Below are positions 31,932 through 50,720 of a stretch of 64,000 nt of DNA, piece by piece. Source of the stretch: Povalibacter uvarum (GTDB lineage: Bacteria; Pseudomonadota; Gammaproteobacteria; Steroidobacterales; Steroidobacteraceae). Within the stretch, counting starts at the first letter, position 1. Each line of letters begins with the position of its first letter. The notes under the pieces are model-generated. The model did not search any database. It was not told the origin of the DNA and saw only the letters and a list, made by a program, of their open reading frames with translations. The stretch lies in NCBI RefSeq assembly GCF_014202975.1, contig NZ_JACHHZ010000002.1, forward strand, positions 62,001 through 126,000. Direction: 5' to 3'. The position numbers and the translations under genes are program-made.

Positions 31932-33746
31932 ATGAACAGAAAACAGAAGGCGGCAGAACGACCGCTCAATGAGTATCCGATGCGCACGCTCGAGCGACCG
32001 GCGCCGAGCATCGAAGTGCGACAAGGCGATGACGGCATCGTCTATCTCTCCTGCGGCATTCCTTACGAGCCGGGATTGCCTTCGCTGATCGACTACTTCT
32101 CACGCTCCGTCGAACTGCGGCCCGATTCGACGTTTCTCGCGGAGCGCAAAGGCACTGACTGGCGTCGAGTGAGTTATCGCGAGGCCTGGCGCGATACCGG
32201 TGCAATTGCGACGTGGCTGATGCGCCAGGGTTTCGGACCCGATAGCGCACCCGTGATGATTCTTTCCGAGAACAGCATCGAGCACGCATTGCTCACGCTG
32301 GGTGCGCTGCGCGCTGGCGCGGCCGTCGTTCCCGTGTCGCCAACCTATTCCTTCGGCGCCGAACTCACGCGGCTCGGATATGCACTCGAGCTGATCGAGC
32401 CCGGCGTCGTATTCGCGCTCGACGGCGAACGTTATGGTCCGGCACTCGAGACGGCGCGCGCTCCCGGGCGCCGTCTCGTGACGGGCGCTGATCTCCGCGA
32501 GATGCTGAATGAGTACGATGAAGCCGCGGTGACGGAGCGACGCAAGGCGATCACCGAAGACACGATCGCAAAGATCCTGCTGACTTCAGGTTCGACAGGC
32601 CGCCCCAAAGGCGTCGTGAACACGCACGGCAATCTCGCTGCATCCGTGCAGATGATTCGTCTCGTGAGCGAACCGTTCACGCTCGAACGTCATCACGTCA
32701 TCGTCGACTGGCTTCCCTGGCATCACACGTTCGGCGGCAACGCGCAGTTCAACGGCGTGCTTGCGAATGCGGGCACGCTCTATATCGATGATGGACGACC
32801 GATGCCGGGTCTGTTCGAGAAGACGATCGAGAATCTGCGCGACGTCTCGCCGAGTGGCTTCGGTTGCGTACCGGCCGTCTATGGGCTGCTCGCCGATGCG
32901 CTCGAGCGCGACGACGATTTCCGCCACAAGTTCTTCAAGAATCTGCGCTGGCTCTCCTACGGCGGAGCGTTGCTGCCGCAACCTCTGTGGGAACGCATTC
33001 AGCGATTGGCAGTGAAGGAGCTGGGCGAGCGCCTGCCCTTCGGCACCGGCTGGGGCATGACGGAAACATCCGCCACCGGAATCGCTGTGTATTGGAACAC
33101 GGAGCGCACAGGCCTCGTGGGCCTGCCCCAGCCAGGGGTGACTCTCAAACTGCTCCCGGTCGGCGACCGGATCGAAGTCCGCATCAAGGGGCCTCACATC
33201 ATGCCGCGCTATTACCGCAACGACGTACTCAACGCTGCCGCATTCGATGAAGAAGGATATTTCAAGACCGGCGATGCGGCGCGTTGGGTGGACGCGCGAC
33301 GTCCGCTCGAGGGACTCGAGTTCGCAGGCCGTATCGCCGAAGACTTCAAGCTCCAGTCAGGCACATGGGTTCAAGGCAGCATTGTGCGACGCGACCTCGT
33401 CGCTGCGCTGCAGCCCTACGTCACCGACGCGGTCATCTGCGCACCCGACCAGCCTTGGCTGGGCGCGCTCGTGTGGCTCAATGTCGCGGACCAGGAGCCC
33501 ATTCGCGCGGCGCTTGCGGCCAAGCTCGCGAACTTCAATCGTGCACGGCAAGGCGGAGCCAGCACAGTCTCGCGCCTGCTCGTGCTCACAGATCCGCCTT
33601 CGGCAGAAGCCGGTGAAGTGACGGATAAGCGTTCGATCAATCAGCGCCGCGTACTCGAACGGCGTGCCGACGACGTCAACGCGCTTTACGCACCGACACT
33701 GGACCCTCGCGTGGTCCTGCCGATCCAGGGAATTCAGCACGGTTGA
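31932..33746 (+). CDS. AMP-binding acyl-CoA synthetase, feruloyl-CoA synthetase-like
   Basis: A 604-residue ANL-superfamily enzyme, normal length for feruloyl-CoA synthase-like proteins. The P-loop/AMP motif is LLTSGSTGRPKGVVNTHGN, WLPWHHTFGGNAQF is the next core motif, GTGWGMTETSA the A5 motif and GYFKTGDAARW the hinge motif; the C-terminus carries GEVTDKRSINQRRVL with the catalytic Lys in TDKR. It activates an aryl or fatty carboxylate to the CoA thioester. PAPSIEVRQGDDGIVYL at the N-terminus is the extended start seen in feruloyl-CoA synthetases. The listed TTG at 31929 directly precedes the ATG used here. Neighbouring thioesterase (34238) suggests CoA-ester metabolism. Confidence 0.85.
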   Translation: MNRKQKAAERPLNEYPMRTLERPAPSIEVRQGDDGIVYLSCGIPYEPGLPSLIDYFSRSVELRPDSTFLAERKGTDWRRVSYREAWRDTGAIATWLMRQGFGPDSAPVMILSENSIEHALLTLGALRAGAAVVPVSPTYSFGAELTRLGYALELIEPGVVFALDGERYGPALETARAPGRRLVTGADLREMLNEYDEAAVTERRKAITEDTIAKILLTSGSTGRPKGVVNTHGNLAASVQMIRLVSEPFTLERHHVIVDWLPWHHTFGGNAQFNGVLANAGTLYIDDGRPMPGLFEKTIENLRDVSPSGFGCVPAVYGLLADALERDDDFRHKFFKNLRWLSYGGALLPQPLWERIQRLAVKELGERLPFGTGWGMTETSATGIAVYWNTERTGLVGLPQPGVTLKLLPVGDRIEVRIKGPHIMPRYYRNDVLNAAAFDEEGYFKTGDAARWVDARRPLEGLEFAGRIAEDFKLQSGTWVQGSIVRRDLVAALQPYVTDAVICAPDQPWLGALVWLNVADQEPIRAALAAKLANFNRARQGGASTVSRLLVLTDPPSAEAGEVTDKRSINQRRVLERRADDVNALYAPTLDPRVVLPIQGIQHG

Positions 33747-33897
33747 CCCCCTTGGGGAACGAGGGCTCACGGCTCGGCCCTCCGCTGCCTCCGTTCGTCG
33801 CAACGACTTTCGGGTCACTGCAACCTTTTTCGCGGAGGCTGCATCTCAAGGACATACGCTGCAATGAGCAGCAATTGTCCACCGAAGGGAGCACGCC

Positions 33898-34053
33898 ATG
33901 TACACCATCATCGAGTTGAGCAACCGCACCGAGCGAGCAGTCTGTGCCGTTCTTTCCGTCACGATCGTCGCCGTCGTTCTGGCCCTGGGCGCCGCCGGCA
34001 TCGAATCGACCGCACATCTGGACTACTCGGTCACGGTCACGCAGCTGTCGTAA
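33898..34053 (+). CDS. Single-span membrane microprotein, 51 aa (paralogue of 50562-50720)
   Basis: A 51-codon gene, AAGGGAG 7 nt before the ATG. The protein has a short N-terminal head, a hydrophobic helix from about residue 15 to 30 (with Cys16), then GAAGIES at 31-37 and a polar C-terminus ending VTVTQLS. A paralogue at 50562 shares Cys16, Gly31, Ala32, Gly34, Glu36 and Ser37 in exactly the same register and a matching VTITQIA end. I recognise no family. The shared pattern and good ribosome sites support real coding. It follows the acyl-CoA synthetase by 151 bp, which contains a GAGGGC/GCCCTC hairpin (about 33765-33786). Confidence 0.75.
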   Translation: MYTIIELSNRTERAVCAVLSVTIVAVVLALGAAGIESTAHLDYSVTVTQLS

Positions 34054-34133: not shown

Positions 34134-34237
34134 AGATCGCGGCGCAGAGACGAGAACGGTCAGTGCCTGCACGACCCAGTGCCTGCAACACAGGGGCGTG
34201 AGAAGATCGCGGCAGTCATCCTGTCGTGATCCGTTCG

Positions 34238-50238: not shown

Positions 50239-50315
50239 CGTCATTCCCGCGAAAGCGGAAATCCATCGTCCCCGGTCCCCGCGAAGATGGATCCCCGCCT
50301 GCGCGGGGATGACGG
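50239..50315. repeat. REP-like palindromic element (family A)
   Basis: CGTCATTCCCGCGAAAGCGG at one end, CGCGGGGATGACGG at the other, with AAATCCATCG...GATGGATC inside: the full double-hairpin form. Confidence 0.8.
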
Positions 50316-50330
50316 ATTTCCAAGCCTACC

Positions 50331-50390: not shown

Positions 50391-50486
50391 CCTCCGAGTA
50401 GCCGGCCCGACCGCTCACAGCGAAGCGCTGCTGCGCAAACGCTGGGTTTTTCGGCCTCTTTTGCGTCGTTCGTCGTGAATCCAAAG

Positions 50487-50504
50487 TTGGCACGACCCCT
50501 GCAA
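50487..50504 (+). promoter_or_regulatory. sigma-54 promoter (-24/-12)
   Basis: TTGGCACGACCCCTGCAA: GG at 50489-50490 and GC at 50501-50502 separated by exactly 10 nt, matching TGGCACG-N4-TTGCA at all but one position. Predicted start near 50514, giving a 48-nt leader for the microprotein at 50562. Sigma-54 transcription needs an activator, which is not in this window. Confidence 0.8.
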
Positions 50505-50561
50505 TACGTAGCACGGGGCGTCCACACGGACGCATCGACACAAACTCAAGAGGTAATCGCC

Positions 50562-50720
50562 ATGTTCGCCATCCAGGTCAATCCTTCGCTCGTCCGCACC
50601 GTCGTCTGCCTCGCACTCGCAGTGCTCATCGTCAGCGCCTCACTCGCCGTCGGCGCAATGGGCGTCGAGTCGATGGCTTCCGCTGCACGCGGCGTCGTCA
50701 CGATCACGCAGATCGCGTGA
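50562..50720 (+). CDS. Single-span membrane microprotein, 52 aa (paralogue of 33898-34053)
   Basis: A 52-residue protein: N-terminal MFAIQVNPSLVRT, a hydrophobic helix with Cys16 (VVCLALAVLIVSASLAV), GAMGVES at 31-37, then a polar tail ending VTITQIA. It matches the protein at 33898 in register at Cys16, Gly31, Ala32, Gly34, Glu36 and Ser37. AGAGG 8 nt before the ATG and a sigma-54 promoter 58 nt upstream support expression. Longer open frame to 50361 lacks ribosome sites. Function unknown. Confidence 0.82.
   Translation: MFAIQVNPSLVRTVVCLALAVLIVSASLAVGAMGVESMASAARGVVTITQIA

Follow-up and report, generated by a model that had tools for sequence, protein, structure and literature searches.

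Predicted single-span microproteins of Povalibacter uvarum form a six-copy family whose branches differ in putative promoter type, ECF or sigma-54

The window analyzed here, a stretch of 64,000 nucleotides from Povalibacter uvarum contig NZ_JACHHZ010000002.1, contains two short open reading frames (P0001 and P0002) that are located exactly where an initial annotation had placed them, encode proteins of 51 and 52 residues, and are each preceded by a ribosome-binding site that can be read directly from the sequence (Table 1). P0001 is flanked by an acyl-CoA synthetase gene that ends at 33746 and an open reading frame of the thioesterase superfamily that starts at 34226, all three on the plus strand. 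P0002 is located between genes for a GH92 glycosidase and a calcineurin-like phosphoesterase, both on the minus strand. Because the genes before and after P0001 are 151 nt and 172 nt away on the same strand, and those next to P0002 are on the opposite strand, the original description of neither gene being in a recognizable operon is a fair one. Both genes have their own promoter motif upstream and an inverted repeat downstream. Neither repeat was scored as a terminator in terminator prediction of the two loci, and the one terminator-like site is found at 50441-50455, upstream of the P0002 promoter. No sigma-70-like promoter was detected on either strand at the two loci, and Rfam gave no match over the P0001 locus. 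In a single BLASTP comparison, P0001 and P0002 are identical at 18 of 38 positions (E 1e-7). Cys16, Gly31-Ala32, Gly34 and Glu36-Ser37 are common to the two proteins in ungapped register, as first described. They also have a VT(V/I)TQ(L/I) ending in common, but alignment of this ending requires a one-residue gap and it is not in identical register.

Table 1. Location of the features described in the text (window positions unless another contig is given).
Feature	Position	Strand	Basis or comment
P0001 ECF-sigma-type motif: -35 TGCAACC, 16 nt, -10 CATC	33819..33845	+	79 nt before start; strict-pattern match
P0001 leader hairpin GCTGC(AATGA)GCAGC	33858..33872	+	0.047 of shuffled leaders as good
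P0001 ribosome-binding site AAGGGAG	33885..33891	+	Sequence reading
P0001, predicted 51-aa single-span microprotein	33898..34053	+	BLASTP, profile search, pN/pS, conservation, AlphaFold2
P0001 predicted membrane segment, residues 15-34, Cys16 at its N-terminal end	33940..33999	+	Hydropathy
P0001 conserved tail, residues 43-51, YSVTVTQLS	34024..34050	+	Conservation over 26 members
8-nt inverted repeat GCCGGCGC / GCGCCGGC after P0001	34067..34094	+	Possible 3' end, without T run
P0002 predicted sigma-54 promoter TTGGCACG-N4-CTGCAAT	50487..50505	+	Sole strict-pattern match in the 6.3-Mb genome
P0002 leader hairpin GCGTCC(ACAC)GGACGC	50518..50533	+	0.017 of shuffled leaders as good
P0002 ribosome-binding site AAGAGG	50548..50553	+	Sequence reading
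P0002, predicted 52-aa single-span microprotein	50562..50720	+	BLASTP, whole-genome search, conservation
11-nt inverted repeat TCGACATCCGG / CCGGATGTCGA after P0002	50735..50775	+	Possible 3' end, without T run
napA	G000:C3:656401-658905 (L008:11402-13906)	+ in L008	NCBIfam match over cut-off

The two proteins had been described as paralogues in two loci, and the relationship holds, but two is too few: profile search finds six copies in the genome. In a whole-genome search with P0002, P0001 was recovered at E 0.0018, and a better-scoring copy at 3.2e-5. The same search gave, besides P0001, three copies in a tandem cluster on another contig (C3:654339-655585, minus strand), and the sixth copy, at C3:579173, was added by a five-row profile (A2). 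A six-frame search with the motif VT(V/I)TQ(I/L) gave six matches in the genome, five of which are members of the family; the other one sits within an unrelated long open frame and was not accepted. Two more matches in the same genome (E 0.43 and 0.48) were left out of the family, as were G022/L021 (E 0.0086, with an internal stop) and C5:499122 (E 0.135). Next to the tandem cluster, on the opposite strand, is the periplasmic nitrate reductase gene napA. Palindromic repeats of the type GTCATTCCCGCG...CGCGGGAATCCAT could be read in the sequence upstream of P0002 (window 50240-50319) and also between the tandem copies (G000:C3, about 655130-655350).

Examination of other genomes indicates that the predicted microproteins form a real family that, among the genomes searched, is nearly confined to one genus. 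Profile A2 matched 13 of 98 genomes at E 0.01, the P. uvarum genome included. A 26-row profile (A3) matched 14 of 217 Steroidobacteraceae-level genomes at E 0.001, with E-values that are flattered because A3 itself contains most of the matched sequences. These matches comprise 12 of the 14 genomes of the genus, again counting P. uvarum, together with G034 and G231; the remaining two genomes of the genus (G005 and G009) gave no member in the A3 search. The match in G034 is convincing, as it is retained at E 3.3e-5 by a profile made without G034, and it is the one clear member among 203 other family-level genomes. The match in G231 (L043) was dropped from the family after its sequence was read, and we take it from that sequence to resemble a CcmH-type protein. 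At the order level at least 13 of 396 sampled genomes match, and at the class level at least 2 of 369 at E 1e-4, both from the same genus; these counts are lower bounds because at most 17 or 18 candidates were scored per genome. The sole order-level match from another family, the doubtful G303/L050, was dropped as a 28-residue match with an internal stop. A collection of named genomes yielded 13 loci, all in Steroidobacter or Peristeroidobacter. No relatives were found in viral contigs with a 12-row profile, or in plasmids and phages with the sequence of one tandem copy as the only query. Two further loci (L029 and L034, in G003 and G011) match the profile weakly and were dropped on reading, as the small protein encoded there is not the same: its start resembles a signal peptide, and it contains the sequence AWEWNV and, in mid-chain, a VT(V/I)TQ(L/I) motif. 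Two members found later (L042 and L047) both keep the Cys. With members in 12 of 14 genomes of the genus, the possibility that there are no homologues outside the P. uvarum genome clearly fails.

The initial annotation knew of no named family for these proteins, and none fits in Pfam, NCBIfam, PHROG or the PDB. None of the 26 members of A3 reached a curated cut-off in Pfam (best E 0.016) or a cut-off in NCBIfam, where the best match was to sorbitol-6-phosphate dehydrogenase (E 0.0095, in four of them; member 1 scored 14.3 bits, and 307 are required); such matches are at chance level. There was no match to PHROGs at E 0.01 and none in the PDB. The literature found on Steroidobacter small proteins was not about this family, and by title none of that found on small membrane proteins with sigma factors concerns it.

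The predicted membrane segment of P0001 is accompanied by a best 19-residue hydropathy window that begins at residue 14. AlphaFold2 modeled P0001 as one helix from residue 2 to 46 at low confidence (pLDDT 73, pTM 0.37), with neither a beta tail nor a partner. Across the 26 members, Met1, Cys16 and Val24 are invariant and Leu28 (25 members), Ile23 (24), Gly31, Thr46 and Gln49 (22 each) are nearly so, although gathering members by profile is a route that favors positions such as Cys16 and Val24. The membrane segment and the tail are conserved to the same degree (0.557 and 0.558), and the N-terminus (0.286) and linker (0.32) are less conserved. A GxES signature had been proposed for the family, but with Glu36 in 11 and Ser37 in 12 of the 26 members it is not a family feature; Cys16, present in all 26, and the tail are. 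A defined family with a conserved Cys, as had been suggested, is what emerges, given the homologues across the genus, the purifying selection on class 1 described below and the lack of a fitting family in the libraries searched. The orientation of membrane proteins generally follows the positive-inside rule. In 25 of 26 members the residues ahead of the Cys carry a net positive charge, P0001 itself being neutral, which suggests an N-in/C-out arrangement.

Six class-1 pairs, picked by eye to avoid common branches before the tree existed, gave a pN/pS of 0.37 (64.5 non-synonymous and 56.5 synonymous changes; binomial p 7e-8, a value that assumes independent changes and ignores transition bias). 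The ratio was 0.64 for two pairs with the sigma-54 element (p 0.02) and 0.59 for P0001 against L023 (p 0.045). P0002 gave 0.73 against L031 (p 0.17), 0.98 against L032 and 0.68 against L028. A dN/dS near 1 is refuted for class 1, and weakly for P0001 (0.59) and P0002 (0.73) taken singly. A D-Ala-D-Ala endopeptidase gene precedes five orthologues from one branch (L016, L017 and L024-L026) by 166-314 nt and L023 by 1.2 kb; the gene is named as such in one of the six loci and was recognized by BLASTP in the other five. P0001 clusters with these six on the protein tree (85/80, a soft grouping), but the neighbors of P0001 differ.

What is new here is the promoters of the family. An ECF-type motif, TG(T/C)AACC-N16-(C/T)(G/A)TC or near to it, is found upstream of 18 of the 26 members, a sigma-54 element upstream of five, and neither upstream of three (L030, L036 and L027). 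Of the 21 members that have no sigma-54 element, 18 have the ECF motif at 77-99 nt upstream of the start, or 16 if it is written strictly as TG(T/C)AACC. It is important to point out that the pattern counted here, (T/C)G(T/C)AAC(C/T)-N16-(C/T)(G/A)TC, was derived from these same upstream regions and was loosened to include L014 and L015, and that the upstream regions were already known when the promoter classes were named. As a control, 159,894 bases from the same loci gave four matches to this pattern, and some of these four may be true sites of neighboring copies because the loci partly overlap. L042 and L047, which were not used to define the motif, both carry it 83-84 nt before the start.

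Genome-wide, the strict pattern has five matches and its reversed control none. The five sites precede P0001, a UrcA-family gene, a LiaX-like gene (a weak assignment, at 40 bits against a cut-off of 350), a small hydrophobic open reading frame, and one other open reading frame with a signal-peptide-like start. The UrcA-family gene (G000:C2:883755, L066) matches TIGR04433 over its cut-off, and the stretch from -35 to -10 in front of it differs from that of P0001 at 2 of 30 bases; we found nothing in the literature on UrcA with ECF. The relaxed pattern is not enriched by number in the genome, with 10 matches against 8 for the reversed control. Nine of the ten relaxed sites lie 61-86 nt before an ATG taken as the start, in an inspection that covered the ten matches of the pattern itself; the nine belong to P0001, two tandem copies and six other genes, and the tenth is inside a coding frame. 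Within the window, a loose pattern is not enriched (2 matches, 0.92 expected). A membrane-stress or redox response had been tentatively suggested for both proteins. Finding an ECF-type motif ahead of P0001 and of related members lends indirect support to a membrane-stress response, but P0002 has a predicted sigma-54 promoter instead.

Sigma-54 promoters have GG and GC at -24 and -12 in the consensus TGGCACG-N4-(T/C)TGCA. The element (T/C)TGGCACG-N4-CTGCAAT is found 72-80 nt before the start of five members (P0002, L031, L032, L028 and L020) and is absent elsewhere in the family loci searched; these five are near-consensus predicted sigma-54 promoters, and the genome encodes rpoN (C6:88883). 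On the protein tree, a large branch of 20 rows (86/98) holds 17 rows with the ECF motif and the three motif-less rows. L033, L042 and L047 make up a third branch (99/99), in which the tail reads VIVE(V/F/A)A and the Cys and ECF motif are the same. The five rows outside both ECF branches are exactly those with the sigma-54 element. Mapped onto the tree, the promoter label changes three times, compared to a mean of 7.7 when labels are shuffled. The predicted ECF-type and sigma-54 promoters sit on different branches of the family, but the tree is supported by few columns, and the sigma-54 rows fall to one side of a branch in only 12% of bootstrap trees.

Between promoter and start codon, a stem of 4-8 pairs (G-T allowed) can be formed in 25 of 26 leaders, the exception being L030. 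The summed stem score is 338.5, compared to 149.3 (sd 24.3, maximum 213.5) in 300 mononucleotide shuffles. Singly, nine of the 26 leaders reach 0.05, and many of the rows are near-copies. The stems vary between branches (CCGC, GCTGC, GCGTCC, GTCCAC and CGCATCG). The relaxed ECF pattern also precedes six other genes, and a stem is found in the leader of one of them, but those leaders are shorter. The hairpin may have a role in transcript stability.

A six-copy family under purifying selection in class 1, with two predicted promoter types that follow the branches of the protein tree, could be explained in several ways. The explanation that we prefer, and hold with middling confidence, is that these are inducible N-in/C-out single-span microproteins of the inner membrane at the level of the genus, the copies of which have been assigned to different alternative sigma factors and tune a partner protein. 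In each, a helix of about 20 residues would start at the invariant Cys, with the short N-terminus on the inner side of the membrane and a short C-terminal tail on the outer side. Release of an ECF sigma factor from its anti-sigma factor, under envelope or oxidative-type stress, would cause P0001-type copies to be made, and the firing of a sigma-54 activator would do the same for P0002-type copies. The transcript, short and carrying a hairpin close to the 5' end, would then give a burst of small membrane protein. Least certain are the last steps, in which the conserved helix positions (Cys16, Ile23-Val24, Leu28 and Gly31-Ala32) might dock onto another membrane protein as partner. The beta-prone tail (YSVTVTQLQ) might engage this partner from the periplasmic side and tune its activity. 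MgrB, AcrZ and SafA are stress-induced single-span small membrane proteins of enterobacteria, and the likeness to the present family lies in a length of about 50 residues, one predicted helix and putative stress-type control. Unlike them, the family has no Pfam or NCBIfam match over cut-off and has been amplified into paralogues that are divided between ECF-type and sigma-54 promoters.

The main rival, which we regard as possible although rather unlikely, is that the proteins are precursors of a secreted peptide. Residues 1-34 would be a Sec signal peptide cut after A32-x-G/A34. This would free a peptide of about 17 residues, with YSVTVTQLQ at its end, to act in the periplasm or outside. Signal-peptidase I sites follow a small-x-small rule, and such a site is kept here, position 32 being A, S or V in all 26 members and position 34 being G, A or S in 25. 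The net positive N-terminus and the strongly conserved tail are in keeping with this explanation as well. Like the precursors of the Rap-Phr peptide family, the proteins are short and have a hydrophobic leader and a conserved end; however, the match to that family is at chance level and in 1 of the 26 members (E 0.034). Furthermore, the hydrophobic segment is conserved as much as the tail and contains the invariant Cys and Val24, which would be unusual for a signal peptide that is discarded. Because the invariant Cys sits in the hydrophobic stretch, the helix itself is argued to be functional.

Type I toxins such as Ldr, Ibs and TisB are small hydrophobic proteins that depolarize the membrane and are kept in check by a structured leader together with an antisense RNA. 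The size, single helix, intergenic tandem copies and hairpin leaders of the present family would suit a toxin of this kind. Nevertheless, the leaders are short, neither window locus has an antisense promoter of the sigma-70-like type, and six copies in six genomes stay downstream of the D-Ala-D-Ala endopeptidase gene, making a toxin improbable. That the genes are chance open reading frames or decayed gene fragments, as their length of about 51 codons and the weak selection on P0001 and P0002 singly might imply, is hardly credible given homologues in 12 of 14 genomes of the genus, the class-1 pN/pS of 0.37 and promoter motifs at similar distances.

Returning to the inducible single-span microprotein, the assignment of its copies to identifiable ECF-type and sigma-54 promoters predicts when each copy is made. 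A more speculative extension, to which we give little weight, is a lineage-specific toolkit in which copies of one scaffold have been handed to separate alternative sigma factors. Each regulon would deploy a membrane-tail variant of its own as an adaptor for its particular stress, or release a short peptide signal of its own. If so, the tail, which is conserved, would serve as the address, and docking or sensing would fall to the helix with the Cys. The family adds a testable group of small proteins that is described by none of the family libraries searched, and it gives a route to ask how small membrane proteins duplicate and get rewired between regulons.

The P0001-type promoters also point to a candidate ECF regulon in Steroidobacter. 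Locus L083 (132-2026) contains an ECF sigma gene followed by a zf-HC2 anti-sigma gene, with a membrane-protein-like open reading frame divergent from the sigma gene. DUF6249, presumed at first to be the label for this divergent gene, was not used, as the gene has no match in Pfam or NCBIfam, and nothing related was found in the literature on DUF6249. In one report, the ECF16 promoter is proposed as tGTAACc-N16-CGAA, the -10 of EcfF's own promoter in Bradyrhizobium as (c,t)CG(t,a) after N14-15, and OsrA, its anti-sigma partner there, as a DUF1109 protein (PMC3420878). The -35 and spacer of ECF16, tGTAACc-N16, resemble the TG(T/C)AACC-N16 of the microprotein family, but the -10 of the family, (C/T)(G/A)TC, agrees neither with CGAA nor with EcfF's own (c,t)CG(t,a), and the ECF16-type anti-sigma factor is DUF1109 OsrA rather than the zf-HC2 match found beside the L083 sigma gene. 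Because both the -10 and the type of anti-sigma factor differ, membership in the ECF16 (EcfF/SigF) regulon was dropped. The motif of the family, in which a -35 that contains AAC is followed after about 16 nt by a -10, is itself also found upstream of a sigma gene: the intergenic region of L083, which holds one of the genome-wide sites, carries it both ways, toward the sigma gene and toward the divergent open reading frame, and two matches in the locus were reached by 1 of 200 shuffles. On sequence grounds, the L083 sigma factor is the leading candidate for recognition of P0001-type promoters. The motif facing the sigma gene ends only 11 nt before the listed ATG, a distance so short that the gene would have to start further downstream or be read from a leaderless transcript.
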